Part shown: piece by piece, positions 1 through 16,614 of the stretch
How positions within the stretch are numbered: the stretch's first letter is position 1
Layout of the letters: every line of letters begins with the position of its first letter
DNA from: Desulfosudis oleivorans Hxd3
GTDB lineage: Bacteria > Desulfobacterota > Desulfobacteria > Desulfobacterales > Desulfosudaceae
DNA: 64,000 bases
Assembly (NCBI RefSeq): GCF_000018405.1
Contig: NC_009943.1
Coordinates: 2,669,001 to 2,733,000, forward strand
Reading direction: 5' to 3'
Made by a program: the position numbers and the translations under genes
Notes under the pieces: generated by a model
Told to the model about the DNA's origin: nothing
Seen by the model: the letters and a program-made list of their open reading frames with translations, nothing else
Database searches by the model: none

Positions 1-12
1 AAAAACAGGGAA

Positions 13-1023
13 TCAGGCAGACAGCAGGGCAAAGGTGGTGTCCAGCATGCGATTGGCATAGCCCCACTCGTTGTCGAACCAGGCCAGAACGGAAACCCCG
101 GTGGTGCCAGCAACCCGGGTCTGGGAGCCGTCAATGACGGCCGAGTGGGGGTCGTGGTTGAAGTCGCAGGAGACCAGGGGCAGTTCGGTGTATCCCAGAA
201 TACCGGCGAGCGGGCCGGTGGCGCCTGTCGCAAAGATTTCGTTGACCGTTGCGGCCTCGGTTTTTGTTTTGACATGAGCCGTGAGCTGCATGGCTGACAC
301 GTTGGTGGTGGGCACGCGCAGGGCAATGGCCTGGAACCGGCCGGCCAGCCGGGGCAGGAGCCGGTCAATGCCGCTGGGTAGCTCGGTGTTGACCGGAATC
401 ACCGACTGGCCGGAGCTTCGGGACTTGCGCAGGTCCCGGTTGTGATAAGCGTCGATCACCGGCTGGTCGTTCATGATGGAATGGATGGTGGTGATCATGC
501 CGTGGTCAATGCCCAGGGCCCGGTCCAGCACGTCGATCACCGGAACAATGCAATTGGAGGTGCACGAGGCGTTGGAAATGACAGTATGGTCCTTTTTAAG
601 GGAGGTATGGTTGATACCGTAAACGACAATGGCGTCCGCGTTTTCCGCCGGGCAGGAAAAAACCACCTTTTTGGCCCCGCTTTTTAAATGCCCTTCGGCC
701 GTGGCCCGGTCGATAAAGCTGCCCGTACACTCCAGCACCGCGTCCACGCCCAGCTTCGCCCAAGGCAGGGCCGCCGGATTTTTTTCAAAAGAGACCTCAA
801 TGGGATCGTCATTCACATAAAGGGTGGCCCCCTCATGAACGACACGGCCGGCAAAACGGCCATGGGTGGAGTCAAACCGGGTCAGATGGGCAATGGAATC
901 CATGTTGGACAGATCGTTGATGCCCACCACGGCCATGTCCGCCCTGCGGCCCGACTCATACAGGGCCCGCAACACGCAGCGTCCGATTCTTCCATACCCG
1001 TTGATGGCAATGCGAAACGGCAT
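13..1023 (-). CDS. epd: Erythrose-4-phosphate dehydrogenase-like enzyme of the GAPDH family
   Basis: NAD-dependent cytoplasmic dehydrogenase of 336 aa. The Rossmann start INGYGRIGR is at the N-terminus and the catalytic cysteine is Cys154 in SNASCTSNC. Several stretches match Epd better than glycolytic GAPDH: YESGRRA near residue 23, IHSIMNDQPVIDAYH after the catalytic region, and YTELPLVSCDFNHDPHS near the C-terminus. Epd makes 4-phosphoerythronate for the DXP-dependent pyridoxal phosphate route; GAPDH activity cannot be excluded from sequence. The start at MPFRIAING is chosen because AAAGGAG lies just upstream; the longer open frame (to 1119) has no homologous N-terminus. The stop is close to the window edge, so downstream operon partners are not visible. 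Confidence 0.85.
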   Translation of the reverse strand: MPFRIAINGYGRIGRCVLRALYESGRRADMAVVGINDLSNMDSIAHLTRFDSTHGRFAGRVVHEGATLYVNDDPIEVSFEKNPAALPWAKLGVDAVLECTGSFIDRATAEGHLKSGAKKVVFSCPAENADAIVVYGINHTSLKKDHTVISNASCTSNCIVPVIDVLDRALGIDHGMITTIHSIMNDQPVIDAYHNRDLRKSRSSGQSVIPVNTELPSGIDRLLPRLAGRFQAIALRVPTTNVSAMQLTAHVKTKTEAATVNEIFATGATGPLAGILGYTELPLVSCDFNHDPHSAVIDGSQTRVAGTTGVSVLAWFDNEWGYANRMLDTTFALLSA

Positions 1024-1202
1024 ACGTTCTCCTTTAAAAATGGTTCCTTTATACAGGCTTTGTGCCGGACTTGCAAGACGGCTGCCGGTGAAAAAAAGTG
1101 ATGTTTCCGGCGCTTGCATCTTTTTTTCACATGTACTATGCTTCTGTTAACAAAACCTGAACGGATAAACAAAATGCCCGAACAGATACAAGGAGGGGCG
1201 CA

Positions 1203-1736
1203 ATGGAACACATCGACCTGGAAAAAGGCAGAATACAGCACGAAGACCAATGGCTGTCGGCCGAAGAGCTGGCCGAAAAAATTCAGGAGAAAATAAAGTC
1301 CGGCGACATGAAAATCGCCAAACTGGCCGGGCTTTTAGAAGAGCTCAACACCGCCATGGAGTCGATTCATGTGCTGGAGGCCAGGATCACCATCTCAAAA
1401 GATCAGTATGAGAAACTGGTGGCAAAGGGCGGCGAGGATGACAACGAGAGTGTGCGGCAGGCCGTGCTGGCCTTTATTGAGGAGAAAACCCGGCCCAATC
1501 CGCCGGACATTGACTTTATTCCGGTGGGAGACGAGCCCCTGGCCATGGAGCCGACCGATAACGCTCCGCCGGCAAAGGGGAAGACGGTTACCATCAACTG
1601 TTCCAAGTGCAACAGCCCCATTGAGATCGACACGGAAAACATGCCCTCCGAGATTCGGTGCCCCAGTTGCAACGCCCGGGGCATGCTCAAGACCTACAAG
1701 AACAAGCCGCAGTTCAAGGACCGGTATGCGGGGTAG
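1203..1736 (+). CDS. Conserved hypothetical protein with C-terminal zinc ribbon
   Basis: A 177-aa soluble protein that I do not recognise by name. The first 80 residues are charged and helical. A C-terminal CxxC-x16-CxxC module (Cys133, Cys136, Cys153, Cys156) looks like a small zinc ribbon of the MJ0042/zinc-ribbon type. A strong AAGGAGGGG ribosome site precedes the ATG. It converges on map with only two bases between the stop codons, so there is no room for a terminator between them. Function unknown; metal or nucleic-acid binding is only suggested by the ribbon. Confidence 0.7.
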   Translation: MEHIDLEKGRIQHEDQWLSAEELAEKIQEKIKSGDMKIAKLAGLLEELNTAMESIHVLEARITISKDQYEKLVAKGGEDDNESVRQAVLAFIEEKTRPNPPDIDFIPVGDEPLAMEPTDNAPPAKGKTVTINCSKCNSPIEIDTENMPSEIRCPSCNARGMLKTYKNKPQFKDRYAG

Positions 1737-1738
1737 GG

Positions 1739-2632
1739 TCAGAGGTCAAAGGGGGTCAGGCTTTCAAAGCCGTCGGAGGTGACCACCAGGGTCTGTTCGA
1801 ACTGGGCCGACAGGGAGCCGTCGGCGGTGACCGCGGTCCAGCCGTCCGGCAGCACACGAATCCCCTTGGCGCCCAGGTTGATCATGGGTTCAATGGTAAA
1901 GACCATGCCCGGCACCAGTACCACGCCCTCCCCCCTTCTCCCGTAGTGGGGCACCTGGGGCGGCTCGTGAAAATCGAACCCCACGCCGTGGCCCACGAAC
2001 TCACGCACCACCGAGCAATCCCGCGCCTCGACATAACGCTGAATGGCCCACCCGATGTCTCCCACATGATTGCCCGGTGTCACCATGGCCATGGCCTCGG
2101 CCAGGGACCGCCGCGTCACATCCACGATTTTGACGGCATTCAGGCCCGGTGTGCCCACAAAAAAGGTTTTGTTTACATCCGCATAATAGCCGTTTAAAAT
2201 CGGCGTCACATCCACGTTGACAATATCCCCTGCCTGAAGAATCCGGTTGCCCGGGATGCCGTGGCACACCTCGTCATTGACCGACACGCACACGCTCTTG
2301 GGAAATCCCCGGTAGTTCAGGGGGGCGGGCACGGCACCGGCGGCAACCGTTTGGTCATGCACCAGGGTGTTGACCTGGTCGGTGGTGATGCCGGGCCGCA
2401 GCATCTGTTCCACCCGGTCCAGCAGTTCCAGGGCCAGGCGTCCGGCTCTGGCAATGGCCCTGATGTCCTCGGCCTGTTTGATGCAAATGCCGTATTTCTC
2501 GCGATAGGCCCTGGCCAGAGAGGACTGGGGGGTTGTTTCCCTGCCCATGCAGCACTTTTTGTATTTTTTCCCGCTGCCGCAGGGGCATGGATCATTGCGG
2601 CCGACAGTCACTGGATCTTCCTTGTGTTTCAT
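1739..2632 (-). CDS. map: Methionine aminopeptidase with N-terminal SEC-C motif
   Basis: Removes the initiator methionine from nascent proteins in the cytoplasm. The 297-aa protein begins with a SEC-C zinc motif ([16 protein letters not shown], residues about 13-28), followed by the pita-bread catalytic domain. The metal ligands are visible in order: Asp in NVDVTP, Asp in YYADVNK, His in [13 protein letters not shown], Glu in [10 protein letters not shown] and Glu in [13 protein letters not shown]-tagged type I enzymes are a known variant; the zinc tail probably helps ribosome docking, as in SecA, though that is inference. The stop lies two bases from that of the convergent neighbour. A GAGG ribosome site is 8 bases before the ATG. 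Confidence 0.95.
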
Positions 2633-2819
2633 TTAAATGCCTCATGTTGTACAAACATTATCCATATACAATCCCCGTACGGTTTGCAACCGGAAACCTG
2701 CCCGGTGCCCGGCCCGGTGGATTCGCTTTTTTATTTTGAAAAAGCACGACAAATCATGTAGAACATACACACGAACAATTACAAGACAGCAGCTTAACCC
2801 TTGAGACCGGCGGCAGACC

Positions 2820-3224
2820 ATGAGTGACAACCCGCAGCCCCCGCTTCCCTACACGGCGCTTTCCGCCGACACGGTGGGCACCAAGATGCTTACCGTGATT
2901 GAATATGCCTACCGGGAGACACGGCCCATCGACGTGGTGATCCGGCAGCCGGAATTCACTTCCCTCTGCCCCATGACCGGGCTGCCCGACTACGGATGCA
3001 TCACCATCCGCTACCGTCCCCGCCATCATATTGTGGAACTCAAATCATTGAAATACTATCTTCTGCAATATCGCAATGTGGGCATATTCTACGAGCACGT
3101 GATCAACCGAATTCTAAACGATCTGTCCGGGGCCGTGGCCCCCGTATGGATGGAGGTCTCCGGAGAATTCACCGCACGCGGCGGTATCACCACAACCGTC
3201 ACCGCGGCAACCGGAGACCAATAA
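2820..3224 (+). CDS. queF: NADPH-dependent 7-cyano-7-deazaguanine reductase (short, unimodular QueF)
   Basis: Reduces preQ0 to preQ1 in queuosine biosynthesis. The protein is 134 aa, the size of the unimodular (type I) QueF. The catalytic Cys50 lies in [12 protein letters not shown] with the catalytic Asp57 seven residues later, and the family motif ELKSLKYY follows near residue 76. It stands alone between map (opposite strand) and the cNMP-PATAN gene; other queuosine genes are not in the window. I looked for a preQ1 riboswitch upstream and saw none. Confidence 0.93.
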
Positions 3225-3263
3225 ACCGGCCTCGCCGGGTGGCGGGTATAAACGAGGATACGC

Positions 3264-4337
3264 ATGACGCTGCTTGAAGCCTTTTTTACAGTGACAGAGA
3301 ACGACAGCTGCCCGTTTTATGAGACAGACGACCAGTTCCGGTTTTCCACCAATGCCCTGCACATGCCGCCGGGCAAACCCACCTGCACCATCCTGGCCGA
3401 CGATATCAGGCGTGTCCTTAACAGCGACCAGGAAGAACCGGCGTCACAGGAGGATCCGGCAACGTTCAAATGCAGCGGGTGCTCCGGCACCATCACCCTG
3501 ACCTACGAAAAGGTCACCGAATACGTGTTCGAACTGGAAGACCCGCACGAAAACGCCAAGGACAACATCGCCCGGCTGCTGAAAAACTTTTCTTTCTTCA
3601 AAACACTCAAAAAACACGAGATCAAATACTTTGTGCCCTTTATCCGGCATAAACAGTTTCAAAAAGGCGACATCATCATCAATAAGGGAGAGCCAGGTAA
3701 AAACCTCTTTGTGATCCTGTCGGGCATGGTGGAGGTAGTGGGGGAAAACGACGTCAACATCGCGTTTCTGGGCAAGGAGGAGATTCTCGGCGAGATGAGC
3801 CTGATCAGCGGTGAGGCGGCCGGCGCCTCTATTCGGGCCGTTGAGCCCACCCGGGTGATCTTTCTGAACAGCCGGAATTTCCGCAAGCTGCTGCGCCAGT
3901 TCCCTGCCCTTCAGATGTACTTTGCCGGCCTGCTCTCCAAACGCCTGGCCAAAACCAACGTGGCCCGGTCCGCGGACCTGGAATCGGGCATGTCCGGCAA
4001 CCTCTCGGAGATGCCTGTGGCCGAACTGCTTCAGACCTTCAACATGAACCAGAAAACCGGGGTCCTGACCCTCAAGTTCCCCCACGATTCAGCCACCATC
4101 ACCTTTAAAAACGGCGAGCCGATCCGGGCCCGCTTCGGCGAGATGAACAACAAAGAGGCCTTCTGGGCCGTGCTGAAGGAAAAAACCGGCCGGTTCAAGT
4201 TTACCCCCGGTATTCCGCCGGAAGAGGAGTCCCGCAGCGAGATCGGCCAGTTCATGTGGCTGCTGATGGAGGGGCTTTCCCGCATGGATGAAGAGGCCCA
4301 CACGGAGGCGGAAACACAGCGGAAAACCGAGAACTGA
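3264..4337 (+). CDS. Cyclic nucleotide-binding domain protein with C-terminal PATAN (DUF4388) domain
   Basis: A 357-aa cytoplasmic regulator. The first 100 residues carry a CSGCSG pair and no family I recognise. Residues about 108-230 form a cNMP-binding fold (KGDIIINKGEPGKNLFVILSG, then LGEMSLISG in the phosphate-binding cassette). Residues about 240-330 match the PATAN/DUF4388 domain (MPVAELLQTFNMNQKTGVL). PATAN domains act as protein-interaction adaptors in signalling in this phylum. No DNA-binding or enzymatic domain is visible, so it is probably an adaptor that reads a nucleotide signal. GAGG is spaced well from the ATG, 39 bases after queF. Confidence 0.85.
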   Translation: MTLLEAFFTVTENDSCPFYETDDQFRFSTNALHMPPGKPTCTILADDIRRVLNSDQEEPASQEDPATFKCSGCSGTITLTYEKVTEYVFELEDPHENAKDNIARLLKNFSFFKTLKKHEIKYFVPFIRHKQFQKGDIIINKGEPGKNLFVILSGMVEVVGENDVNIAFLGKEEILGEMSLISGEAAGASIRAVEPTRVIFLNSRNFRKLLRQFPALQMYFAGLLSKRLAKTNVARSADLESGMSGNLSEMPVAELLQTFNMNQKTGVLTLKFPHDSATITFKNGEPIRARFGEMNNKEAFWAVLKEKTGRFKFTPGIPPEEESRSEIGQFMWLLMEGLSRMDEEAHTEAETQRKTEN

Positions 4338-4409
4338 AACGGCGGGGCCGGTACCCCTTCCCCTGCATCCCGGTCTGCGCCATGCCCCCCTCCTCCGGTG
4401 CGAATCAGA

Positions 4410-4730
4410 TCACCGCTGGAAATCCCGGAACTTCGTATCAATGGCGGCAATCTCGTCCAGGCGGATCAAAGCGTCAAAAAAGTCCTTGCGATCCAGCTTC
4501 TCCAGATGCACCAGGTGGTCCCCCACTGTCTTGACGGTACCCGCCAGAACGGTTCCGGATTTCAATGTGATGTAAACCTGCTTGCCTTCCAGTGCTTTCA
4601 GGTTATCCGCCAGGGACGCCTTTACATTGTAGGCCATTCCCTCAATGGCCACCACATTGGCCGCGGCGCCGGCCATGACCGGAACCAGCAGAAACGATAC
4701 CGCCAGAAACATCATGCATGCTTTTTTCAT
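4410..4730 (-). CDS. Small exported protein with Sm-like beta domain
   Basis: A 106-aa protein with a clear Sec signal peptide (MKKACMMFLAVSFLLVPVMAGAA), so it is probably periplasmic. The mature part contains LEGKQVYITLKSGTVLAGTVKTVGDH, typical of a small Sm-like/LSM-type beta barrel where a strand pair starts with K-S-G-x-V-x-x-G. Exported Sm-like proteins of this type are poorly characterised. An AGGAGG-like ribosome site is next to the ATG. It lies 62 bases downstream of the bactofilin on the same strand and may be the last gene of that operon. Confidence 0.65.
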   Translation of the reverse strand: MKKACMMFLAVSFLLVPVMAGAAANVVAIEGMAYNVKASLADNLKALEGKQVYITLKSGTVLAGTVKTVGDHLVHLEKLDRKDFFDALIRLDEIAAIDTKFRDFQR

Positions 4731-4792
4731 TTTATCCTCCCTTAACCATGATGGACACTACCCGCCGAATGCGGAGACAAAAACATTGAAGA

Positions 4793-5122
4793 TTATCCCC
4801 CGTTGCAGGCCACCTCGGTATTCAGCCGGCCGCCCTTTTCCATCCGAAGCATGCGGCAGGCGACCTTTCCGGCGCAGCTGCCGGTGGCCAGGATGACCAG
4901 GTCCCGGTCCACGGCCGCGTCCCCCTCAAACTCACCACCGACGGTCATCTCCGTCACCCGGACCGTGGCCCGAACCCGCCCCCCGGCCGCGATCACCAGG
5001 CTCTCACCGTCAATGGTTCCCCTCACATCGCCTTTTATCACCAGGGTGCCCTTAACCGTGAGCGTGCCTTCTATACTCAGCCCACCGTCAATGATCGACA
5101 GCCCTTTCTGCCGGCTATCCAT
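4793..5122 (-). CDS. Bactofilin (polymer-forming cytoskeletal protein)
   Basis: A 109-aa protein built of repeated short beta strands with periodic glycine and valine (LSIEGTLTVKGTLVIKGDV, then LVIAAGGRVRATVRVTEMTV), the right-handed beta-helix pattern of bactofilins. Bactofilins polymerise without nucleotide and recruit peptidoglycan enzymes. The second ATG (5122) is preferred because AAAGGAG is 7 bases upstream of it but only 1 base before the first ATG (5128). It overlaps the end of the M99 carboxypeptidase gene, which implies translational coupling. A conserved cysteine pair (SCAGKVAC) is visible. Its position next to two peptidoglycan-trimming enzymes suggests a morphogenetic scaffold. 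Confidence 0.85.
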   Translation of the reverse strand: MDSRQKGLSIIDGGLSIEGTLTVKGTLVIKGDVRGTIDGESLVIAAGGRVRATVRVTEMTVGGEFEGDAAVDRDLVILATGSCAGKVACRMLRMEKGGRLNTEVACNGG

Positions 5123-6968
5123 TCTCATGCTCCTTTAAAAATCGTAGCGTCACCTGCCCTATCACCTCATCTCCGCGCCGTACCTCCACGCGACAGGCTG
5201 CTTCAGCCGGTCGTCCGGCGATGCGATCGGCGCCGGGCAGCCCGCCGCCCCTGGGCCATTCGGCAAGGGTGTCGCCGAAACCGGCAAACACCCGCACACC
5301 TTTATTGTCCGACACGTTGGTGATCATGTCGGCCAGGCGCAGGGAGCCGGCCGCTTTTGTGCTCAGGACAAGCGTTGCTCCGGGCCGGCAGCAGTAGAGG
5401 TGCTCAGCACCGTCGGCCGCCTGAAGCATCAGGTATCGCAATACCGGCGGGTTGAGGTGCACGAACAGCTTTCCCGTGACCTGACCCTTCCGGGTCGCCA
5501 CCACCTGATAGGTGTTCTTCTCTTTGTCAACGGCATACCGCTCCCAAAGGTCTTTGGCGGTATGAATCAAATAGCCCCTGTCCTCACCGGTATTGTTGGT
5601 CTCGTCTCCCACAAACCCCTTGAAGTTCACCACCACGTCGCCATAGGGGCCGTTGCCCGCCACATCAACCAGCTTGAGCGTGTCGCCGCGTATCAGTTCC
5701 ACGTGGCCATAATTGGGAAATACAAGGGGTTGACCATTAACCTCCACATTGAAAAACAGGGCCGACCCGCCCGCATCCACCGTGGCAATGTTCTGGGCCC
5801 TGTTCATGGGATCACCGCCAAACGCCACGTACACGGTGCCGCAGGGCAGGGAATCCTTTCGGGCAACAAGTTTCGACTCCCGGGTGATCTTAAAATCTTT
5901 TCGCAGATCGTTCAGGGTACCTGCCCCCAGGAGATCCACGGTCAGGCCGCGCTTGTAGTTGGCTTCTATATGAATGACCCGGACGATGTCTCCCGGTCTT
6001 ACATAAAGTGTCTGCTGGTTAGCCACCAGGACCGAAGAACCGCCGTTAATGGAAACCAGCAGATAACTCAATTCCGGGGTATCCAGATAGATGCCCGGCG
6101 TTTCGGGAACAATATCCAGAAGCGCCATAAACCCGTTGATGGCGTAATTGTGCTGACTCACCTTTTCCGCCAGGGAAAGCCCTTTATGGGTCTCCACGCC
6201 AAAGGCGGGAATACCGCAATTGTAGACCGCGTAATAGGTGGCCGACCCCCGCTGTTCCTTATGGGTAGAATCTTTTTCATTGGTCCGGTGGTTGTTGAAA
6301 TGAAAATGGTGGTCCGGGTTCTTGATATGACGGTTCATATCGGCGATGACGGTCCGGGCCATCTTCCCCAGATCCAGGCGAATACCCCGTTCCGGGTCCT
6401 CGTAGATATCACAGTCGGCGATAAGGCACTGGCCGTAACGGTTGGGATTGCGCTGGTCGCTGATCCAGGTGGGAGAATAGAATCCCGATCCGTCGTGCAG
6501 GTTGAGCATGCAGTCGCTCTCCGCGATCAGCTCTTTGAGGATTTCAACCACCCTTGCCTCGTAACTGTTCCGGTCCACGTCGCCGGAAAAGGTCCGGTTC
6601 ATGTCCTTGTTGACCTGGCGTCGCTGCATCAGGATCGACTGAAAATTGGCTCTTGGCACCACGATCAGGTTGCCCCTGGCCAGGGTCAGGTCCACGTAAA
6701 GATCGGCGGAAAGAAAGCCGCCGGGCTCATCCCCCTGAATGCCGCCGATGAGCAGCAGCGTCTTGCCATCTTCCCGGCCATAAAGCCTGTAAACGTGAAG
6801 CTCATAATCGGTATTTTCAAAATAGACCACATGCTCGGCCCGTTGAGAAAGGGCCGAAACCGGCAGCAGCAGCAGGCAGGCGAGACAAAGCGCCGTCCAT
6901 GCCCCCGCTCTTCGGGAGAACCGGCTGATCCGCCACTGTTCAACGCCGGGCGATGCAGAAAAAACCAT
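5115..6968 (-). CDS. M99-family (Csd4/Pgp1-like) peptidoglycan carboxypeptidase
   Basis: A 617-aa exported protein: N-terminal hydrophobic signal (AWTALCLACLLLLPVSALS, residues 23-41), a catalytic domain of about residues 45-290, then beta-rich domains to the C-terminus. The metal site has Gln78-x-x-Glu81 in GGIQGDEPGG and His158 in MLNLHDGSG; a later FGVETHKG carries the probable catalytic Glu. Gln in place of the usual M14 His is the hallmark of Helicobacter Csd4, a D,L-carboxypeptidase that trims muropeptide tripeptides. The family assignment is from these motifs; activity is inferred. Start chosen at MVFSASPGV, 38 bases after the preceding coiled-coil gene; the 3' end overlaps the bactofilin. 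Confidence 0.82.
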   Translation of the reverse strand: MVFSASPGVEQWRISRFSRRAGAWTALCLACLLLLPVSALSQRAEHVVYFENTDYELHVYRLYGREDGKTLLLIGGIQGDEPGGFLSADLYVDLTLARGNLIVVPRANFQSILMQRRQVNKDMNRTFSGDVDRNSYEARVVEILKELIAESDCMLNLHDGSGFYSPTWISDQRNPNRYGQCLIADCDIYEDPERGIRLDLGKMARTVIADMNRHIKNPDHHFHFNNHRTNEKDSTHKEQRGSATYYAVYNCGIPAFGVETHKGLSLAEKVSQHNYAINGFMALLDIVPETPGIYLDTPELSYLLVSINGGSSVLVANQQTLYVRPGDIVRVIHIEANYKRGLTVDLLGAGTLNDLRKDFKITRESKLVARKDSLPCGTVYVAFGGDPMNRAQNIATVDAGGSALFFNVEVNGQPLVFPNYGHVELIRGDTLKLVDVAGNGPYGDVVVNFKGFVGDETNNTGEDRGYLIHTAKDLWERYAVDKEKNTYQVVATRKGQVTGKLFVHLNPPVLRYLMLQAADGAEHLYCCRPGATLVLSTKAAGSLRLADMITNVSDNKGVRVFAGFGDTLAEWPRGGGLPGADRIAGRPAEAACRVEVRRGDEVIGQVTLRFLKEHENG

Positions 6969-7006
6969 GATATTGCTTACCTTTCCGGGCGAACCCCGTT
7001 TCAGGG

Positions 7007-7822
7007 TCAGGGAGGAGACAGGGCGCCGGCACTGCCGGCAACAGGTATCGACACATTAAATGGGCCGGGGACAAACGCCATATGATCAGGGCGCTCCGAC
7101 GGATCGGCGCTGGCGGCAGGGGCTTCTCTTACCACCTTTACCGGGAAAATCGCTTCGTACAACAATTCACCGTCGGTACTGAATATATACACCGTGGCGG
7201 TTTCAAGTTCATGGGGGTTCTCGATATTCACCGTCATGGAGACCGGTTTGAATCGGGCAATTGAAAAATACTGGCCCCTGCCGGGCTGGGCGGGTACGCC
7301 GTCATTCAGGGCCACGGCAGGGGCCACCACTGTCCTGGGACCCGCGCCGGTGTCGCCTTCAAGCACCACAAACACCCGGCCGGAAACCGTGTCCGACGAA
7401 TCACCGACTTTTTTTACCGCAAACTCGATCCGGGAGGCATGGGTATCCGACGTCTGAACCACCCGCAGGTTCTCGATGGCGACAGTTGCCGCCTCTGAAG
7501 CGGCGTCATCGGGCGCGGCCCCTTTCTCACCCGTGTCGGCCACGGCATCGGGTTCTGCCGGCGTACCGGAAGGGGTATCCGTGGCGGTGAGCGCCGCAAT
7601 CCGGGCCAGCAGGGCATCGTTTCTGTCTACCAGCACCCGCACCTCCTGCCGGGCGGATGCCAGGTCGCCCGACAATTTTTCGGTTTTCGACCGTTCATTC
7701 AAGAACAGCAAAAAGCAACACAGCGAGACCAGCAGGGAGACGATGAACACGCCGGCGGCAATGGCCACGTAACGCACAAAGTGCTTTACGTGAACCAGCC
7801 GCCCATGTTCGCTGACGAACAT
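7007..7822 (-). CDS. Single-pass membrane protein with coiled coil and C-terminal beta domain
   Basis: Unnamed protein of 271 aa. Residues about 14-40 (FVRYVAIAAGVFIVSLLVSLCCFLLF) form one membrane helix, followed by a coiled coil (NERSKTEKLSGDLASARQEV) and a low-complexity Ala/Asp/Glu linker. The C-terminal 120 residues look like a beta sandwich, reminiscent of DUF6776-type proteins; this match is weak. The ATG at 7822 is chosen because ACTGGAG precedes it and it clears the upstream stop; longer frames would overlap the L,D-transpeptidase. Sandwiched between two peptidoglycan-trimming enzymes, it is a plausible membrane anchor linking cytoplasmic bactofilin to periplasmic enzymes (inference). 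Confidence 0.6.
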   Translation of the reverse strand: MFVSEHGRLVHVKHFVRYVAIAAGVFIVSLLVSLCCFLLFLNERSKTEKLSGDLASARQEVRVLVDRNDALLARIAALTATDTPSGTPAEPDAVADTGEKGAAPDDAASEAATVAIENLRVVQTSDTHASRIEFAVKKVGDSSDTVSGRVFVVLEGDTGAGPRTVVAPAVALNDGVPAQPGRGQYFSIARFKPVSMTVNIENPHELETATVYIFSTDGELLYEAIFPVKVVREAPAASADPSERPDHMAFVPGPFNVSIPVAGSAGALSPP

Positions 7823-7842
7823 GACGCTCCAGTGCTGCTCTC

Positions 7843-9243
7843 TCAGCCCTCTGTTTTCGGTGTCGGCGGAAGGTCCAACGCTTCCCAGGACTCCCGGTGA
7901 ATCCTCCATTGCCCGTCCTCCTTTTTCAGGATCAGGGTTTTCAGGCCCATATCGCTGTAACGGTCTGACTCGTATTTCTGAATGAAGGTCACCACACAAA
8001 CGGCGGGTGATGTCTCCACAAACCGCAGGTTGTCCATGGCCACGCGAATATAGTCATACTGCCAGTTCAATTTCCGCTTATAGGCCAGCCACCCCTTTTT
8101 GTTCATGCCATCGAAAACAAAATCGCCGGCATAAAAGGTGCCGTATGCGTCCATGTCCATTCGGCTCCATGCCGACAGCCACTGGTCCAGCATCCGGCGG
8201 ACACTTTTCTCCGTCACCGCCACGTCATACACGTTCCGGCAGGCCGCCACCAGACGGTTGGAAGGACTCTGGGCGCCCCCCTTCACCTCAGGTCCCTGAA
8301 AAGTGTCACCGACAATCTTCAGTCCGTTGGTCGTCTCTTCCAGGAACAGTTTTCTTCTGCCTGCTTTCACCCAGCTGCCGCCGGCTGAAACAACCTGGTC
8401 AAAAAGGGCCACATAATTTTTGTCATAGCGAACCACCAGAAGCGAATCCATGTCAATGTAAAGGTCCGGAAGTTCCCCGGCCACCTCGCCGCGCACTCGG
8501 CGCCACTTTTTCCACCACCCCATGTCGGGCAGGTAACGGGGGTCATAAAACCGAAGATAGTCGTGGTAGGTGCCGGAAACCAGTGCGTCATTCCATTGCC
8601 GCACCAGGGCTCCCACCGCCTTGTCCACCCGGGGAACGGCCTGCCATGGGGCTTCGGCCACCTCGTGGACGATCACGATGGGGGTATGATAAAGCTCTAT
8701 ATACGGGGCCAGCGCGTCAATGCTGCCATTCTCCAGCGCCACGCAGCCGTTGGAATCATTGTCCTTCAACACTTTATTGGTACCGTGAAGCCAGATGGCG
8801 CTGCCGTTCTTTTCCGCTTCATGATCCAGCACGTTGGGGTAGTCCAGAGGGAACGCAAGGGTGCCATAAATCGGCGCCAGCTCACTGTCTGTGTACTTGC
8901 GGGTGAAAAAATAGATGCCCTCCGGTGTTTTTTTGTCACCCATCACCAGCTTGGGACCATGGTTCTCACCGGTGGAGCACTTCCACTGCTTTTCCTTGCG
9001 AATAGAATTTTTGTAAAAAGAAAACAGGAAAAGCTGCTGGGTGGCCTTTTCCACCAGGATGACATACTGGGGCCGGTCCTCCTCGGAATAGACCACCAGG
9101 TCGGGAATGGAAAATGCCTGGGCCCCTGTCCCGGAGATGCCCAGTACCGCCAGCGCCATCGCTGCCGCCGGCATGTTCACACAAAAAAATCGCCCGATGC
9201 CTTTCAATAAATCCCGATACCACACCATGTTTATCCGCGCCAT
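7843..9243 (-). CDS. L,D-transpeptidase/carboxypeptidase (YkuD) with NTF2-like C-terminal domain (Csd6-like)
   Basis: A 466-aa exported protein. An N-terminal signal (about residues 24-44) is followed by a YkuD domain (about residues 58-195) with His153 in IWLHGTNK and the catalytic Cys167 in SNGC. Residues about 345-466 form an NTF2/ketosteroid-isomerase-like domain ending in [11 protein letters not shown]. YkuD plus NTF2-like is the architecture of Helicobacter Csd6, an L,D-carboxypeptidase that cuts muropeptide tetrapeptides to tripeptides, the substrate of Csd4. The start overlaps the ruvB stop by 13 bases; a second ATG at 9228 is also possible. Function by analogy. Confidence 0.82.
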
Positions 9244-10262
9244 TGCACCCCCAGATGTCTGTAGGCGGCCTCTGTCGCCTTCCTGCCCGAGGAGGTCCGC
9301 TGAAGCAGTCCTTCGGCCAGCAGAAAGGGTTCCACCACATCGACCAGTGTGTCGGTCTCCTCCTGCAGTGTGGCGCCGATGGCCTCGATGCCCACCGGGC
9401 CGCCGCCGTAATATTGAATAATGGTTTCCAGATAGGACCGGTCCAGGCCGGTCAATCCCTTTTCGTCCACTCCCTCCAGCGCCAGGGCATCGTCAATGGC
9501 CGACACCGTGATCACACCGCCATGACGCACCTGTACGTAGTCCCGGACCCGCTTTAACAGGCGGTTCACGATGCGGGGGGTTCCCCGGGACCGTCGGGCC
9601 AGTTCCATCGTGCATGTTTCATCAATGGTCAGCCCCATCAGGGCCGCGGACCGGGAAACAATGCGGGCCAGGTCTTGTCGGGAATAAAAATCAAATTTAC
9701 GAAAAATGCCGAACCGGTCCCGCAGGGGCGCGGAGAGAAGCCCCACCCGGGTGGTGGCCCCCACCAGCACGAACTGGTTGAGCCGGTACCGGTGACACCG
9801 GGCATGAATGCCCTTGTCAAACACGAAATCCACGGCAAAGTCTTCCATGGCCGGATAAAGGAACTCCTCGGTGGTCCGGGGCAGCCGATGGATCTCATCG
9901 ACAAACAGGATGTCGCCGCGTTTCAGATGGGTCAGCATGCCGATCAGGTCCCCGCCCTTTTCCAGGGCTGGGCCCGAAGTAATGGTGAGGCTGGTTCCCA
10001 TTTCAGCGGCAATAATATGGGCCAGGGTGGTCTTGCCCAGGCCGGGAGGACCGTGAAACAGCACATGCTCAAGGGGCTCGCTCCGCTGCTTGGCGGCCGC
10101 AATGGCGATCCGCAGGGTCTCCACGGTCCGGTCCTGGCCCACGTAATCTTCAAAATCGCACGGCCGCAGGGAAAAAAGATCGTCGCCGGTATCTTCTTCC
10201 GTCTCATGCCGGGTGACCGGAGAAGAGGGATCAGAAGAAAACGTAAGTATCTTTTCTTTCAT
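9231..10262 (-). CDS. ruvB: Holliday junction branch migration helicase RuvB
   Basis: AAA+ motor of the RuvABC resolvasome, 343 aa. Walker A is GPPGLGKTT, Walker B is FVDEIHRL, sensor 1 and the arginine-finger region follow ([21 protein letters not shown]), and the C-terminal winged helix ends in [17 protein letters not shown]. The start overlaps the ruvA stop as ATGA. It is the last DNA-repair gene before the envelope cluster, with which it also overlaps. Confidence 0.97.
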
Positions 10263-10876
10263 TGGGCCTGTCCGTGCTTGAAAATTTCGTCAAACAGCGC
10301 TTCCGGGGTGGAAACGTCGGGGTTGCGCTTCAGTGCCCCGGCCACCATCAGCCGGGCTTCGTTGGGTTTATAACCCAGCTGCCCCACCAGCACCTCCACT
10401 GTCTGGTCCGCCAGACTGCCGGTCACCGGCACATCCGGCGCTGATGAATGACCGGCATCGGCAAAGCGGCCCACCTTGCCCTTGAGCGTGGCGATCATCT
10501 TCTGGGCCGTGCGGCCGCCCACCCCTTTCAACTGGCCCAGCAGGGCGCTGTTGCCGGTCTCAATGGCCTCGGCCACCTCACCGATGGGCAGCGTCAGGCA
10601 CTGTACCGCCTTGAGGGGGCCGATGGCCTCCACCGTGATCAGCAAATGAAAGAAATCCTTTTCCTCCTCGGTATTGAACCCGATGAGCACCGGCTTGGGC
10701 TGCCGTTCAGTCTGGTAATGATAGATGTGGAAAAAAAGCGGGTCCCCCTCCCGCTTGCCCTGCAGGGACGCCATCACCACGGCGGGCAACAGCACCTCAT
10801 ACCCCACCGGCCCGGCCAGCAGGAGAATGCGGTCTTCCTTTTTTTTCAGCAAGGTGCCTTCAAGATAACCGATCAT
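10259..10876 (-). CDS. ruvA: Holliday junction DNA-binding protein RuvA
   Basis: Tetrameric Holliday-junction binder, 205 aa. It begins [12 protein letters not shown] like other RuvA proteins, with two helix-hairpin-helix segments ([15 protein letters not shown] and [16 protein letters not shown]) and the C-terminal RuvB-contacting domain ([10 protein letters not shown]-type, [17 protein letters not shown]). The ATG at 10876 is chosen over the longer frame to 10945 because the extra N-terminus has no counterpart and lies inside ruvC. It overlaps ruvC by 17 bases and ruvB by 4. Confidence 0.96.
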
Positions 10877-11345
10877 AACGGAGCAGTCCCATAATGGCCA
10901 GGGCCAGGGCATCGGAGGCGTGGTCCGGGCGAATCGGCCCGTCATGGCCCAAAAACCGGCTCACCGCTTCACCCAGCTGTTTTTTACCGGCATTGCCGTT
11001 GCCGGTGACAACCTGTTTGATCTCCCGCACCGGCACCTTGACGGCTTTCACATTTTCCTGGAACCCGGCCAGGAGGATCACACCGGTCACCTCGCCCAGC
11101 ACAATGCCGGAAACCGGGTATTTTTTCAAGAAAAAGACATCCTCAACCACCATGACATCCGGCTTTTCATCCCGCAGCAGATCCTGAACATTCGAAAAGA
11201 TACGGTGCAGGCGGCATTGCAAAGAGTCATTTTTCGACGTCTGGATGCAGCCAAAGGAATAGCCTGAAACCCGACCGTCACACCCTTTTACAATGCCGAC
11301 GCCGGTGTCGGCCAGGCCGGGATCAATGCCGATAACCTTAACCAT
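10860..11345 (-). CDS. ruvC: Crossover junction endodeoxyribonuclease RuvC
   Basis: Resolves Holliday junctions; 161 aa. The catalytic acidic residues are visible: Asp in VIGIDPGLADTG, Glu in VVEDVFF, and two Asp in DHASDALALA. An ATG at 11345 is chosen; a GTG two codons upstream (11351) is an alternative. First gene of the ruvCAB-envelope run on the minus strand. Confidence 0.96.
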   Translation of the reverse strand: MVKVIGIDPGLADTGVGIVKGCDGRVSGYSFGCIQTSKNDSLQCRLHRIFSNVQDLLRDEKPDVMVVEDVFFLKKYPVSGIVLGEVTGVILLAGFQENVKAVKVPVREIKQVVTGNGNAGKKQLGEAVSRFLGHDGPIRPDHASDALALAIMGLLRYDRLS

Positions 11346-11396
11346 GAACACCTGTCCGTCCGGTTATTCCGCCTGCCGGGTCGGCAACGGGTATCA

Positions 11397-12224
11397 TCAA
11401 AGCTCCGCCAGCTTTTGTTCCCCGATTTTCGCGTCACTGGAACCGGGAAACTGTTTGACCAGTTTATTGAGCACCACCCGGGCTTCCGTGGTCTTGCCGA
11501 TATAGCTGAAGGCGATGCCCTGTTTCAGGAGGGCAGCGGGCACTTTGTTCCCCCTGGGATAATCGTCGATGGCCTTCTGATATTCAAGAATGGCCTTTTC
11601 GTACCACTTTTCCCGAAAGTAGCTCTCCCCGATCCAGAACCGGGCGTTGTCCGCAAGATCAGACTTGGGAAAGCGTGCAATCAGCTCTTCAAATCCCTTT
11701 CGCGCGGCATCATAGTTGCCCTGCTCGTAGTGCTGGCGGGCCATTCCGTATAAGCGCTCAACCGCCAGGTTGCCCTCTGCGGCGCTTTCGGCCCTGTCCG
11801 CCGCCGCTTCGTCTGCCGCGGCCCCCGGTGCCGGCGCCTCCATGCCCAGATAATGTTCCATGGCGGCGACCCGTTCAATCAGGCTGCGGCCCAGGGCCGT
11901 CATCTGCTCCTGGCGTTCTTTTTCAGCGTCCGTTGCCGCGTCTTTCTGCTTTTCCAGAAGATGGACGGCGGCCTCCAGTTCTCCCCGCAGGGACTGCACC
12001 TCTTCCCGCAACGCGTTGAGCTCGGCCTTTAGCACGGCAAAATCGGCCCGCAGGGCCTGCTCCTTGCTTTCAACACTGTTTTTCAGGTAGTCGATGTCCC
12101 TCTTGACGACAAACTGCTCCTGCTCCAGTTGGTACACGCGGGAATCGACCAGGGTGCTGTTCTGGGTGGCAATGCAGCCGCCCAGAACAAAGACCGGTAA
12201 AATAAAAAAAAGGATGATTCGCAT
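11397..12224 (-). CDS. cpoB: Tol-Pal system protein CpoB (YbgF), lipoprotein form
   Basis: A 275-aa periplasmic protein that coordinates outer-membrane constriction with peptidoglycan synthesis. The signal peptide ends in a lipobox (VLGGC), a coiled coil follows (residues about 30-115), and the C-terminal 120 residues hold TPR repeats (YGMARQHYEQGNYDAARKGF, FWIGESYFREKWYEKAI). E. coli CpoB is not a lipoprotein, so the lipobox is a lineage feature. The ATG at 12224 is chosen because the signal peptide starts there; the longer frame to 12302 runs into the terminator hairpin. It is separated from pal by that terminator, so it may be transcribed only by read-through or its own promoter. Confidence 0.9.
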   Translation of the reverse strand: MRIILFFILPVFVLGGCIATQNSTLVDSRVYQLEQEQFVVKRDIDYLKNSVESKEQALRADFAVLKAELNALREEVQSLRGELEAAVHLLEKQKDAATDAEKERQEQMTALGRSLIERVAAMEHYLGMEAPAPGAAADEAAADRAESAAEGNLAVERLYGMARQHYEQGNYDAARKGFEELIARFPKSDLADNARFWIGESYFREKWYEKAILEYQKAIDDYPRGNKVPAALLKQGIAFSYIGKTTEARVVLNKLVKQFPGSSDAKIGEQKLAEL

Positions 12225-12277
12225 GGCAGGCTCCCATCCGCCTCGCACGGCATGCGGACAACACATGCGCTGTACAT

Positions 12278-12313
12278 AAAAAAGCCGGCAGGCCGAATTC
12301 AACAGCCTGCCGG
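12278..12313 (-). terminator. Strong intrinsic terminator after pal
   Basis: A perfect 10-base inverted repeat, GCCGGCAGGC and its complement (12284-12293 with 12304-12313), is separated by an 11-base loop and followed on the minus strand by TTTTTTATG. It sits just after pal (12374) and before cpoB (12224). The shape is a textbook rho-independent terminator for the tol-pal operon. Confidence 0.85.
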
Positions 12314-12373
12314 CCGATTTACGATAGTTTCAACATCCGGACATGATCCGGACCGTTTACGCAACAACCGGTT

Positions 12374-12919
12374 TTAGCGGAGCACAAACTGGGCACGACG
12401 GTTCTTTGCCCAGGCGGTTTCGTTGCTCCTGGGATCCAGGGGCCTTTCCTCGCCGTAGCTGATGGTGGAAAGGCGGGACGCGGAGATGCCCATGTCCACC
12501 AGAAAATCCTTGGCCGCCTTGGCGCGCCGGTCACCCAGGGCCAGGTTGTACTCGGTGGTGCCCCGCTCGTCGCAATGGCCTTCAACAACTACTGCCGCAT
12601 CCGAATTGTCCCGGAGCCACGTGGCCTTGGTCCGAAGAATTTCCCGGGCCGCGGGGGTCAGGGTGGATTTGTCAAAATCAAAATGGATGTTCTCGTTGAC
12701 AAAAGCGTGACGGGCCGCGGCCTTTTCAGCGGCAATGGCTTCGGCCTCGGCCATCTCTTCGGCCGCCATTTGAGATGCTTCATCGGCAGCGAGGGAGGAT
12801 TCTGTTTCCAGCTCGGTAGCCTCTGATTTCACACTCTGTTTTGCGCAAGACACGGTAAACAACAGACCGCATATGGCAAACAGCATGACAAACATGACAA
12901 ACAACCGTTTCTTTTCCAT
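12374..12919 (-). CDS. pal: Peptidoglycan-associated lipoprotein Pal
   Basis: Outer-membrane lipoprotein of 181 aa that tethers the membrane to peptidoglycan. A lipobox (TVSC) lies at about residues 22-25, then a Glu/Ala-rich linker with a possible coiled coil (residues 35-68), then an OmpA-like domain with HFDFDKSTLTPAA and VVVEGHCDERGTTEYN, the diaminopimelate-binding motif (ALGDRRAKA). Located directly after tolB with a GGAGGA ribosome site. The operon terminator follows. Confidence 0.95.
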   Translation of the reverse strand: MEKKRLFVMFVMLFAICGLLFTVSCAKQSVKSEATELETESSLAADEASQMAAEEMAEAEAIAAEKAAARHAFVNENIHFDFDKSTLTPAAREILRTKATWLRDNSDAAVVVEGHCDERGTTEYNLALGDRRAKAAKDFLVDMGISASRLSTISYGEERPLDPRSNETAWAKNRRAQFVLR

Positions 12920-12945
12920 GTGTTCCTCCTGTTGGTTTTAAAGTT

Positions 12946-14262
12946 TTATCTGCCCGCCGCCACGGCCGGCGACCATTTCGGGCCTGTCTGTTCCCCCGGC
13001 AGTATCAACAGCCGCCTTGGATCGGTGCCGGCGGCGGTCATCACGTAAATCCTGGAAACCCCGGCCTCCCGCGTGGAGCTGAACGCAATCAGGCTGCCGT
13101 CCGGCGACCATGAGGGAGACTCGTTATCACCCTGGTCGGCGGTCAGGGCCACAGTGGCGCCTGTTTTTACGTCAATGACACGAACATTAAACGCACCGCC
13201 GGTCATGGCGCAGTACGCAATCGTGTCATTTACAGGGTTCCAACTAGGATTTGTATTGTATCCGCCCTCAAAAGTCAACCTTTGGGTGCGGCCGGAGCCC
13301 ATGTCCATGATAAAAATCTGGGGGCTGCCGGCCCGGCCGGACACAAAGGCCATGCGTTTGCCGTCCGGCGAAAAAGTGGGAGAGACATCAATGCCCCAGC
13401 TTCGGGTCAGCCGCCGGACAACCGTGCCGGATCCGGTGAGCAGGTAGATTTCCTGGTCCCCTTCAAAAGAGAGAGTGGCGGCCAGCATGAACTGGCCCGG
13501 CACCCAGGACGGCGCGATGTTAATCCCCTCTTTGGAAAAAACCGTCCCCCGGTTTTCGGTGAGGTGCGTGATGTAAAGGTCCGGCCCCCCCTTGCGGTAG
13601 GAGGTGTAGGCCAGCCACTGGCCATCCGACGACCAGGCCGGGGAGAGATTGATGCTGCTGTTGCGCGTGATCCGCTGCGGGTTGTACCCGTCAAATTCAC
13701 AGGCATAGATCTCCTTGCTGCCGTCGCCGGTGGAGATAAATGCGATTCTGCTTTCAAAGATGCCTGGGGTGCCGGTAAGCTGTTCCATCACCTCCGCGCA
13801 GAACCGGCGGATCATTTTCCGCTGGTCCACAGGTTTGCCCTTGTACTTTTTGCCGAGAATCATCCGCTCCTTGAACACGTCAAACAGCCGGAGTTCCATC
13901 TCCATCATTCCCCCGGCCACTGTCACGCCGCCGGTGATCAGAAACTCGGCGCCGATGTCGCGCCAGTTCTTACAATCAATGTCGGCCAGGGTCACCCCGG
14001 TCCGGTCCGGCCGTTCCAGAAAGGCGGCCCGGTTGATCAGGTTAAAATAACGGGTGAACTCCAGGGTGTCGGCCAGCAGGTCGGCCCCGCTCTGTGCGGC
14101 CTTGACCTCGGGCTCGGTACCGGTAAGGGCCTGAAACAGGGGCACGGCAATGGGAATCTTATGCAGAAACGGGTTGCTGATCCGCACGTAATCATACTGG
14201 GCAAAAAGTGTGGCCGGCAGACAGATCAGCAGGGCCAGAACAAGCAGGGATCGCTTTACCAT
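12946..14262 (-). CDS. tolB: Tol-Pal system beta-propeller protein TolB
   Basis: Periplasmic 438-aa protein. A signal peptide (LLVLALLICLPATLFA) precedes an N-terminal alpha/beta domain, then a six-bladed propeller with repeated WD-like PD40 motifs (SPAWSSDGQWLAYTSYR, SPTFSPDGKRMAFVSGR, NPSWNPVNDTIAYCA, SPSWSPDGSLIAFSS). It binds Pal and cycles in the Tol system. It lies between tolA and pal on one strand. Confidence 0.96.
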   Translation of the reverse strand: MVKRSLLVLALLICLPATLFAQYDYVRISNPFLHKIPIAVPLFQALTGTEPEVKAAQSGADLLADTLEFTRYFNLINRAAFLERPDRTGVTLADIDCKNWRDIGAEFLITGGVTVAGGMMEMELRLFDVFKERMILGKKYKGKPVDQRKMIRRFCAEVMEQLTGTPGIFESRIAFISTGDGSKEIYACEFDGYNPQRITRNSSINLSPAWSSDGQWLAYTSYRKGGPDLYITHLTENRGTVFSKEGINIAPSWVPGQFMLAATLSFEGDQEIYLLTGSGTVVRRLTRSWGIDVSPTFSPDGKRMAFVSGRAGSPQIFIMDMGSGRTQRLTFEGGYNTNPSWNPVNDTIAYCAMTGGAFNVRVIDVKTGATVALTADQGDNESPSWSPDGSLIAFSSTREAGVSRIYVMTAAGTDPRRLLILPGEQTGPKWSPAVAAGR

Positions 14263-14290
14263 TCCTCTTTCAACCTTTCACCGCTCCGGT

Positions 14291-15115
14291 TTATCGGGCG
14301 TCTTTCGGCGTAAACTCAAGATTTACCCTGTGCAGCACAAACCCCTTTGGCAGGGGCGGCAGGGGCACGGACTTGAGAATGGCCTTGCGGGCCGACTCGT
14401 CATAGGTGTCATTGCCCGACCGCTTTTCAAACCGCAGGTCCATGAGGCTACCGTCGGCGGCAATATGAATGGCGATCACCGCCTGCAGGTTTTCATCCAC
14501 GCCCATGGGGGAAACCCAGTTTTTTCGAATCTGAAACCCCATCTCCACATTGTAGATTTCAAGAGCGCTGGCCGCCCTTCCGCCACCGGCGCCTGTGCCG
14601 CCGCCACCGGCCGGTCCGTTGCTTTGGCCGGAAATGCTGACGTTCTGTTCGGTCTGGCTCACTTTCTGTTCAAGATCGGCAAGGGTTTTGGCCAGTTCGG
14701 CATCACCCGTATCTTCGGCTTCCGGGGCCGCTGCCGGGGCGGTCCTGGGCGAAGCCTTGACCGGCGCGGTATTCTTTTTTGTCGATACCGCGGCTTTGGG
14801 TTTGGGCACCACCGCCGGCTTTTCATAGGCCGGGGCCTTGCTCTCCCTGACCGGCGGGGCCGGGGCCGGGGCTGTCTTGCCTGCGACGGCCGCCGGTTTT
14901 GACGGCCCTGAAGCCGGGCCGGGAAGAGAGACCAGGTCCACGCTGATGGCGCCCATGGGAAATGAGCGCTTCTGGCATCCCGAATAGCTTCCCGAAACCA
15001 CCAGCAGCACCAGTACCAGCAGGTGAAATCCAAAGGAGAGCGACATCCAGGCGGCAAAAGAGCCGGAACCGGTATGCCGGTCGTCCAGAAGCGATGCATG
15101 GTAAGAAACAGCCAT
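14291..15115 (-). CDS. tolA: TolA/TonB-type energy transducer
   Basis: A 274-aa inner-membrane protein. Residues about 20-45 (FAAWMSLSFGFHLLVLVLLVV) form one helix, a Pro/Ala/Lys-rich periplasmic stalk spans about residues 70-170 with a Gln/Glu coiled coil (KTLADLEQKVSQTEQ), and the C-terminal 90 residues are a TonB/TolA-C fold (MGFQIRKNWVSPMGV, LMDLRFEKRSGNDTYDESA). Its place after tolQR and before tolB makes it TolA. Confidence 0.9.
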   Translation of the reverse strand: MAVSYHASLLDDRHTGSGSFAAWMSLSFGFHLLVLVLLVVSGSYSGCQKRSFPMGAISVDLVSLPGPASGPSKPAAVAGKTAPAPAPPVRESKAPAYEKPAVVPKPKAAVSTKKNTAPVKASPRTAPAAAPEAEDTGDAELAKTLADLEQKVSQTEQNVSISGQSNGPAGGGGTGAGGGRAASALEIYNVEMGFQIRKNWVSPMGVDENLQAVIAIHIAADGSLMDLRFEKRSGNDTYDESARKAILKSVPLPPLPKGFVLHRVNLEFTPKDAR

Positions 15116-15158
15116 TATTCAAAAACCCCAGCGGCGCCCATTGTTGAGAAGGTCAGCA

Positions 15159-15577
<419 letters not shown>

Positions 15578-15581
<4 letters not shown>

Positions 15582-16300
15582 TTTTTCTCTCCCCTGGCCT
15601 GGGCCGCGATATGGACCTGGCGCTCGATAATGTTGAGAAAATCGGAGGCAAAGTTGCGCATCTCCGAATCAATCACCCGAATCTTGCCGGTGAAGTAGTT
15701 ATAGGCCACCACCGCGGGAATGGCTGCGGCCAGGCCGGCGGCCGTGGCCACCAAGGCCTCGGAGATGCCCGGCGCCACAACCGCCAGGCTGGCCGCACCC
15801 CGCTCGCCGATGCCGTGAAACGAGTTCATGATGCCCCACACCGTGCCGAACAGGCCGATAAAGGGGGTGGTATTGCCCGTGGTGGCCAGAAAGGGCACCA
15901 GCCGGTTGAGCTTGGCGGTTTCCGCGGTGATGCCCCGGGACAGGGCCCGCTCAATGCTCTTGATCACCGGCACGTCAAAATTGTTTTCCGATTCGCCGGA
16001 CCCGGTGCGGGTAGACGGGGTGCTGAACCTTTTGAACTCGCTGTACCCGGCCCGGAACACCTGGGCCACAGGCGAGGAATCAAGATTTTTGGCCTTGGCA
16101 AAGGCCTCGGAAAAGTCCCTTTTTTTCCAGAAATATTCGGAAAACTCCAGGGATTGCCTTAATGCGTGGCGAATATAGGTGTACTTGATAAAAATGATCG
16201 TCCAGGAGGTGACGGAAAAAAAGAGCAGCAGCAGCAGCACGAACTGGACCATGAGTCCAGCGTTCAGCAGCATGCTGACGATATCAAGCTTGGCGGCCAT
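15578..16300 (-). CDS. tolQ: Tol-Pal motor subunit TolQ (MotA/TolQ/ExbB family)
   Basis: A 240-aa inner-membrane proton-channel subunit. The first helix is at residues about 12-40 and two more lie in the C-terminal third ([42 protein letters not shown]), matching TolQ topology. The ATG at 16300 is chosen because GGAG lies upstream and [15 protein letters not shown] aligns with TolQ starts; the longer frame to 16387 is not conserved. First gene of the tol-pal operon. Confidence 0.95.
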
Positions 16301-16411
16301 AGTAAATGTCTCCGAGGTGTGATGGTTGATCGGGCAGGTCAGACGAGCCCGAATATTTAATGAAATATCCGGGCGAACCCGGCACAAGGCAGCATTTAAA
16401 AAATTGGCAAG

Positions 16412-16556: not shown

Positions 16557-16614
16557 TCGATGGGATTCGATACCGATTTCGATTTCAACCCGAATATTTC
16601 ATAAAAGCTCCGGG

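Follow-up and report, generated by a model that had tools for sequence, protein, structure and literature searches.

A candidate bactofilin-docking membrane protein encoded together with Csd6/Bd1075-type and Csd4-type carboxypeptidases in Desulfosudis oleivorans Hxd3

In Helicobacter pylori, two carboxypeptidases act in series, i.e. Csd6 trims tetrapeptides to tripeptides and Csd4 then trims these to dipeptides (PMC3844677). Several proteins are described as partners of bactofilins: PbpC, LmdC and Csd5 bind them via their N-terminal cytoplasmic parts, Csd7, which stabilises Csd1 in H. pylori, binds as well, and in LmdC of Rhodospirillum rubrum a cytoplasmic hairpin contributes critically to the site that binds bactofilin (PMC10945521). 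A 2025 paper called it poorly understood what determines the binding of clients by bactofilins (PMC12448750), and the authors of the work on Bd1075 of Bdellovibrio bacteriovorus state that no mechanistic basis for its one-sided placement was known to them (PMC8938487). The locus described here bears on the question of how a cytoplasmic bactofilin positions trimming enzymes on a single side of the periplasmic wall. Four minus-strand genes fill positions 9243 to 4793 of a stretch of 64 000 nucleotides from the sulfate reducer Desulfosudis oleivorans Hxd3 (contig NC_009943.1, positions 2 669 001 to 2 733 000; hereafter the window), and encode, in the order of transcription, a YkuD+NTF2 enzyme, a coiled-coil membrane protein, an M99 metallo-carboxypeptidase and a bactofilin. 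We consider it reasonably likely that they form a morphogenetic module in which the coiled-coil protein docks onto bactofilin and steers the YkuD and M99 enzymes. The coiled-coil protein itself probably acts as an adaptor between bactofilin and the enzymes that trim peptides in series.

The four genes are tightly packed. According to their coordinates, which agree with the span given in a first-pass annotation of the window, the YkuD+NTF2 gene (7843–9243, 466 amino acids, aa) overlaps the coiled-coil gene (7007–7909, 300 aa) by 67 base pairs (bp), taking 7909 as the start of the latter, 38 bp separate the coiled-coil gene from the M99 gene (5115–6968, 617 aa), and this in turn overlaps the bactofilin gene (4793–5122, 109 aa) by 8 bp. 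The coiled-coil gene probably starts with the ATG at 7909, which lies behind a GGAGG, and not near 7843, because many of its relatives begin with ME[DN] at the same place.

Conservation of the gene order was followed in two sets of loci. Set A holds 75 loci, i.e. 73 from a phylum sample of 395 genomes, one further locus from the same family and the window, and set B holds 80 of 530 relatives of the window M99 in a species collection, being biased to this M99 and sharing four loci with set A; in both sets, loci truncated by contig ends were included without adjustment. An M99 was found in 73/395 genomes of the sample, in 71 of them above the cut-off, the two below it (G003 and G041) entering no other M99 count. 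The YkuD, coiled-coil and M99 genes are contiguous on one strand in 43/75 loci of set A and 57/80 of set B, and the order recurs across many families with differing outer neighbours; the linkage of the four genes exceeds chance. A bactofilin lies within the cluster in 18/75 and 58/80 loci, respectively, and the full four-gene set is therefore one arrangement among several. The first-pass annotation had called the domains, the order and the overlaps, which Pfam, the PDB matches and the coordinates all bear out, and had looked to conservation of the order outside this genome, which is now evident; its picture of linked enzymes and scaffold is likewise supported. Other arrangements bring in a gene for an LmdC-type M23 peptidase, which stands between M99 and bactofilin in L092 (identical in sequence to L156) and L097. 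The gene order is LmdC-bactofilin-bactofilin-YkuD-coiled-coil-M99 in 'Candidatus Magnetocorallium' (L180), the same without YkuD in a metagenome-assembled genome (MAG) of Nitrospirae (L188), and YkuD-coiled-coil-LmdC-bactofilin in L269. We take L180 and L188 to be magnetotactic lineages, the former presumably a multicellular one.

The first enzyme of the series matches Pfam YkuD (expectation value, E, 3.4e-19) and Cds6_C, an NTF2 family (E 2.3e-24); the latter match is split over two stretches, and the protein therefore probably contains two NTF2 units. Against PDB sequences it is closest to Bd1075 (7o21, E 2.4e-44), both domains of which (YkuD and the C-terminal NTF2-like one) align to it, and then to Csd6 (4xzz, E 3.9e-19); its PDB relatives also include 6xj7, and Pgp2 is among the closest solved relatives. 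The active-site stretch, WLHG...SNGCVAL, holds the catalytic His and Cys and has Ala two residues behind the Cys. Most L,D-transpeptidases have Arg at this position, whereas proteins of the Csd6/Pgp2/Bd1075 type have Ala or Val (PMC8938487). Among 111 distinct YkuD relatives, three frames lack the motif, and the 108 readable ones show Val in 49, Ala in 41, Glu, Thr and Ser in six each, and Arg in none. Considering also an N-terminus that resembles a signal peptide (by reading, not by program), the protein is predicted from its sequence to be a periplasmic L,D-carboxypeptidase of the Csd6/Pgp2/Bd1075 type.

The second enzyme matches PF17033 (E 3.5e-44) and, among PDB sequences, Csd4 (E 4.1e-35). 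The catalytic residues of Csd4, i.e. the metal-binding Q46, E49 and H128 and the general base E222 (PMC4220969), correspond in the sequence alignment to Q78, E81, H158 and E259 of the window protein, and this set of QxxE...H metal ligands plus general base Glu is invariant across 52 alignment rows; His126 of Csd4, a substrate contact, is replaced by Asn156. The best PDB matches of the structure model are likewise Csd4 (4wck, E 6.0e-27), so that a structural check of the M99 identity, proposed at the outset, supports this identity. Csd4 is built from a carboxypeptidase, a beta-barrel and an Ig-like domain; an alignment of the model to it spans 480 columns with a root-mean-square deviation of 14.1, the C-terminal part of the model is longer and rich in beta-strands, and the match to Peptidase_M99_C is weak (E 0.068). 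We predict a D,L-carboxypeptidase of the Csd4/Pgp1 type. In one genome with the same gene order, the M99 frame is interrupted by a stop (L104, 8706–10267), possibly reflecting a pseudogene or a sequence error. Viral contigs were considered as a source of M99 relatives and dismissed, since none of the 16 pattern matches was a true relative.

The coiled-coil protein matches no Pfam family at the cut-off. Its AlphaFold2 model, made with an alignment of 60 rows (mean predicted local distance difference test score, pLDDT, 82.2), shows two short hairpin strands at residues 30–32 and 38–40 (pLDDT around 81), a single helix of 67 residues (44–110), comprising the membrane part and then the coiled coil, and an Ig-like sandwich at residues 143–261. 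The predicted topology is thus a cytoplasmic hairpin, one membrane pass and a periplasmic coiled coil followed by the Ig-like domain. The beta-hairpin region, WSVMFVSEHGRLVHVK (residues 27–42, 7784–7831), is the proposed docking site for bactofilin; the membrane-spanning first part of the long helix, a hydrophobic stretch read by eye, covers approximately residues 44–66 (7712–7780). Although the family is divergent, with a mean column identity of 20 %, the N-termini of 107 sequences, taken from 121 family open reading frames (ORFs), align almost without gaps, and a motif like WTILIVGDHGKVRSFKIS immediately precedes the membrane helix. Four distinct genomes (L101, L102, L103 and L166) encode a YkuD protein that carries the Ig-like domain as a C-terminal fusion, and a search with the window coiled-coil protein alone finds three of these four fusions (E 4.9e-9 to 7.7e-5).

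Attempts to name this protein by other routes led elsewhere. A search of solved structures by sequence gave a best E of 0.039, with coiled-coil or chance matches, and a fold search with the model returned Ig/FnIII-like sandwiches with low template-modelling scores; therefore, no function is drawn from the latter. DUF6776 (PF20567) was set aside as an identity because the match is too weak (E 0.028, below the cut-off); the window coiled-coil gene is the top match in its genome, and 3/60 DUF6776 members match at E ≤1. In Pseudomonas, DUF6776 presumably adjoins a bactofilin.

As to LmdC, the coiled-coil protein resembles it in having a hairpin, one membrane helix and a coiled coil, as the model and the hairpin scores of M23 proteins from the phylum indicate; it has no M23 match and its C-terminal domain is Ig-like, and it is therefore not classed as an LmdC. 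By LmdC-type we mean M23 ORFs that are relatives of one adjoining a bactofilin; a bactofilin is present in the flanks of 27/30 such loci, and NCBIfam models of M23 endopeptidases match the C-terminal halves of all three ORFs scanned, below the curated cut-offs. Hairpins were compared by a gap-tolerant score with a matrix derived from the coiled-coil family, using other membrane-type ORFs as controls. The 41 M23 ORFs of the phylum that passed the membrane-helix filter (of 43) have a median score of 8.2 versus −12.2 for 943 controls (area under the curve, AUC, 0.98), although the corresponding p values are overstated because these ORFs are related to one another. With identical hairpins collapsed, 32 M23 hairpins (median 5.9) still separate from 913 controls (median −12.3; AUC 0.98), and with controls limited to 456 ORFs of at least 250 aa the AUC is 0.97. 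Only one of these longer controls scores as high as the M23 median; among the 943 controls, the single one that reaches the median (L314) is itself a member of the coiled-coil family that the E cut had mislabelled. In a profile comparison the M23 cluster ranked first of 21 clusters (probability 44.6, E 2.3e-4), a component of 165 ORFs containing 104 family members having been excluded from the control clusters. When the hairpin was used in a simple profile search, several M23 proteins ranked near the top of the non-family matches, none of them significantly (best M23 E 0.57). In L317, an M23 protein encoded immediately upstream of a bactofilin is matched by the adaptor profile across hairpin, helix and coil (E 5.2e-9), and by a 54-column profile of the N-terminus alone (E 6.3e-6).

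Genome-level tests covered 390 genomes (G393 and G394 belong to set A, yet fall outside these tests). Cds6_C is present in 66/69 genomes with M99 versus 27/321 others (Fisher p 1e-48, without phylogenetic correction), a pattern to be expected should M99 depend on what the first enzyme produces. A strong adaptor match, by a cut of our own choosing (E ≤1e-8), occurs in 62 genomes, all of which carry a bactofilin, versus 180/328 others, kinship being ignored; G331, in which the match lies in an M23 ORF, is excluded from the 62, and G016 and G168 are included via the fused YkuD form. Among genomes with Cds6_C, bactofilin is found in 48/48 with the adaptor and 35/45 without it, or 32/32 and 19/25, respectively, at the level of genera. 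At E ≤1e-3, 154/390 genomes match; besides family members, the weaker ones include M23 and other coiled-coil proteins, and some come from genomes without bactofilin. The first-pass annotation had placed the coiled-coil protein in the position of a membrane adaptor, and this idea gains support from the predicted topology, the LmdC-like hairpin, the fusion with YkuD and the nesting of the family in bactofilin-bearing genomes.

Away from M99 clusters, 20 further stretches were picked around adaptor matches, one of them being the M23 case described above (L317). In seven, the adaptor adjoins a bactofilin and neither YkuD nor M99 was recognised; one of the seven has an M23, one (L306) is a contig of 3 kb, and in one (L310) the genome carries both enzymes elsewhere. 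Two further stretches read YkuD-coiled-coil-bactofilin, and five have the coiled-coil protein beside YkuD alone, one of these lying at a contig end and matching weakly. In L308 (6019–7119), a coiled-coil gene and a bactofilin follow genes reading as ruvCAB, with no enzyme gene between, and the short coiled-coil protein matches the N-terminal half of the profile only; this single case gives the impression of a joint loss of both enzymes and the enzyme-facing domain. In L311 to L314 (family f48, presumably Desulfovibrio-like), the coiled-coil gene comes directly after the gene for a long YkuD protein, and M99 lies elsewhere in the genome.

Taken together, these data suggest the following mechanism. 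Bactofilin would polymerise into a track beneath the cytoplasmic membrane, onto which the coiled-coil protein would dock by its cytoplasmic beta-hairpin, crossing the membrane once. On the periplasmic side, its coiled coil and Ig-like domain could hold or steer the YkuD+NTF2 enzyme and probably also M99, the former converting tetrapeptides to tripeptides and the latter tripeptides to dipeptides. Trimming close to the bactofilin track would leave less peptide for cross-linking, and the wall might then bend or be shaped otherwise. The binding between hairpin and bactofilin, the recruitment of the enzymes via the Ig-like domain and the effect of trimming on shape are steps that we infer. On which side of the cell the enzymes would act is not predicted, because R. 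rubrum LmdC and its bactofilin are reported at the inner curve and CcmA and Bd1075 at the outer face, a difference that also weighs against the proposal. A wider reading could go either way: hairpin, membrane helix and coiled coil may be a portable bactofilin-docking module to which evolution has attached either M23 or enzyme-recruiting Ig-like ends, the coiled-coil protein then representing a widespread, unnamed adaptor family and the missing physical link from bactofilin to Csd6/Bd1075- and Csd4-type enzymes.

Several further observations weigh against the adaptor as drawn here. M99 stands without a nearby partner in 25/75 loci of set A (17 of these are of the higher-scoring type nearer Csd4, and in three one of the flanks is short), YkuD and M99 occur without a separate adaptor gene in 7/75 and 8/80 loci (two of each being the fused form), and 5 of the 20 further stretches show the adaptor without a recognised partner. 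The likeness of the hairpin to LmdC is drawn from LmdC-type M23 proteins of this phylum, an indirect link to the proteins of R. rubrum and Hyphomonas neptunium; many of the controls are simply open frames and not actual genes, and the profile comparison is weak by itself, another LmdC alignment scoring lower (7.4, E 0.0048). M23 was recognised next to 3/59 sampled bactofilins of the phylum. When six regions around bactofilins in plasmid records were examined, M23 adjoined the bactofilin in two: that of Paracoccus (L193), the only alphaproteobacterial pair scored, reaches −3.7, around the 90th percentile of the controls, and the betaproteobacterial one of Caballeronia (L196) −6.8, with 177/943 controls higher. 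Both genome-level associations are uncorrected, as stated, and a literature search on the cell shape of the host found nothing.

The alternative that survives best retains the same biochemistry with an output other than curvature, i.e. local trimming for the division site, the pole, envelope integrity or stress, with bactofilin as a general scaffold. The presence of the module in 'Ca. Magnetocorallium' fits this, as does its position in a number of loci behind ruvCAB and tol-pal, an envelope/DNA-repair neighbourhood, and bactofilins have roles in stalks, growth zones and other functions (PMC10945521, PMC12448750). On the other hand, Csd6, Pgp2 and Bd1075 all influence curvature in published work, and relatives of Csd4 are described mainly from spiral bacteria (PMC4220969); we regard this alternative as unlikely, if still worth keeping in view.

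Alternatively, the coiled-coil protein could serve the YkuD enzyme alone, as a partner or as a stabiliser in the way that Csd7 stabilises Csd1, its link to bactofilin being a matter of hitch-hiking in the operon and its hairpin a generic pre-membrane element. Such a role would agree with the fusion of the Ig-like domain to YkuD, with L311 to L314, in which neither bactofilin nor M99 was recognised in the stretches examined, and with the borderline hairpin score of the alphaproteobacterial M23 beside bactofilin. It sits badly with the seven stretches that pair the adaptor with bactofilin and no recognised enzyme, with the presence of bactofilin in all 62 adaptor genomes and with the single longer control at the M23 median, and appears improbable to us. 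That the four genes are neighbours by chance or through a shared housekeeping context, without a joint role, is scarcely credible, despite the solitary M99 loci and the frequent proximity of the module to conserved genes, given that the order is found in many families, with various other genes flanking it, and that Cds6_C accompanies M99 in 66/69 genomes.

The bactofilin of the module matches PF04519 (E 5.1e-21) and is one of two matches above the cut-off in the host genome, which consists of one contig of 3 944 167 bases. The other (L189, 9255–9662; G000:C1, around 668754–669161) is placed among elongation machinery genes, with genes reading as mreC, mreD, PBP2 and rodA upstream and as ATP synthase downstream, all named by reading. 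In a MAG of an Olavius algarvensis symbiont (L133, 10019–12184), M99 and bactofilin share a single ORF; the fusion would place the bactofilin in the periplasm, and a sequence error or frameshift is possible.

Directly upstream of the module, the window holds genes reading as ruvCAB and tol-pal (9231–16387), ruvB overlapping the YkuD gene by 13 bp according to their coordinates; in 18/102 loci with enough flank, RuvB is encoded no more than 600 bp upstream of YkuD, and in others within around 1.5 kb. Just downstream of the bactofilin gene, 4410–4730 encodes a small, secreted-looking protein with weak matches to LSM and DUF6897, of which a search limited to set A found no relative in the remaining loci. 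Promoter- and terminator-like sites between 4200 and 11700 show no excess over shuffled sequence, and a scan of positions 1 to 20000 for conserved RNA families found none.

Compared with the described systems, both the kind of system and the enzyme families are known; what is new is the linking protein, together with this combination of genes. In searches of mostly open-access literature on bactofilins and M99 carboxypeptidases, no title or beginning of an abstract described the operon or the coiled-coil family. Besides a gene and a short motif that may mediate docking, the locus offers natural variants, i.e. fusions, enzyme-free versions and clusters with an LmdC-type peptidase. With H. pylori Csd4/Csd6/CcmA and Campylobacter jejuni Pgp1/Pgp2 it shares the same two serial enzyme families plus a bactofilin, but here the enzymes, the bactofilin and the membrane protein are encoded in one operon, whereas the bactofilin partners described for H. 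pylori are Csd5 and Csd7; for the coiled-coil protein, LmdC is the better analogue by sequence. With LmdC and the bactofilin BacA of H. neptunium and R. rubrum (PMC10945521) it has in common the bitopic build, the hairpin before the membrane helix, the periplasmic coiled coil and the neighbouring bactofilin; LmdC carries its own M23 peptidase, whereas the protein proposed here as the adaptor has a C-terminal Ig-like domain, the YkuD and M99 enzymes being encoded by genes of their own alongside it. The curvature-making L,D-carboxypeptidase Bd1075 (7O21; PMC8938487) is the closest solved structure to the YkuD protein, with one NTF2 domain in contrast to the probable two of the window protein, and an adaptor of the kind proposed here could supply a basis for one-sided placement of a Bd1075-type enzyme.

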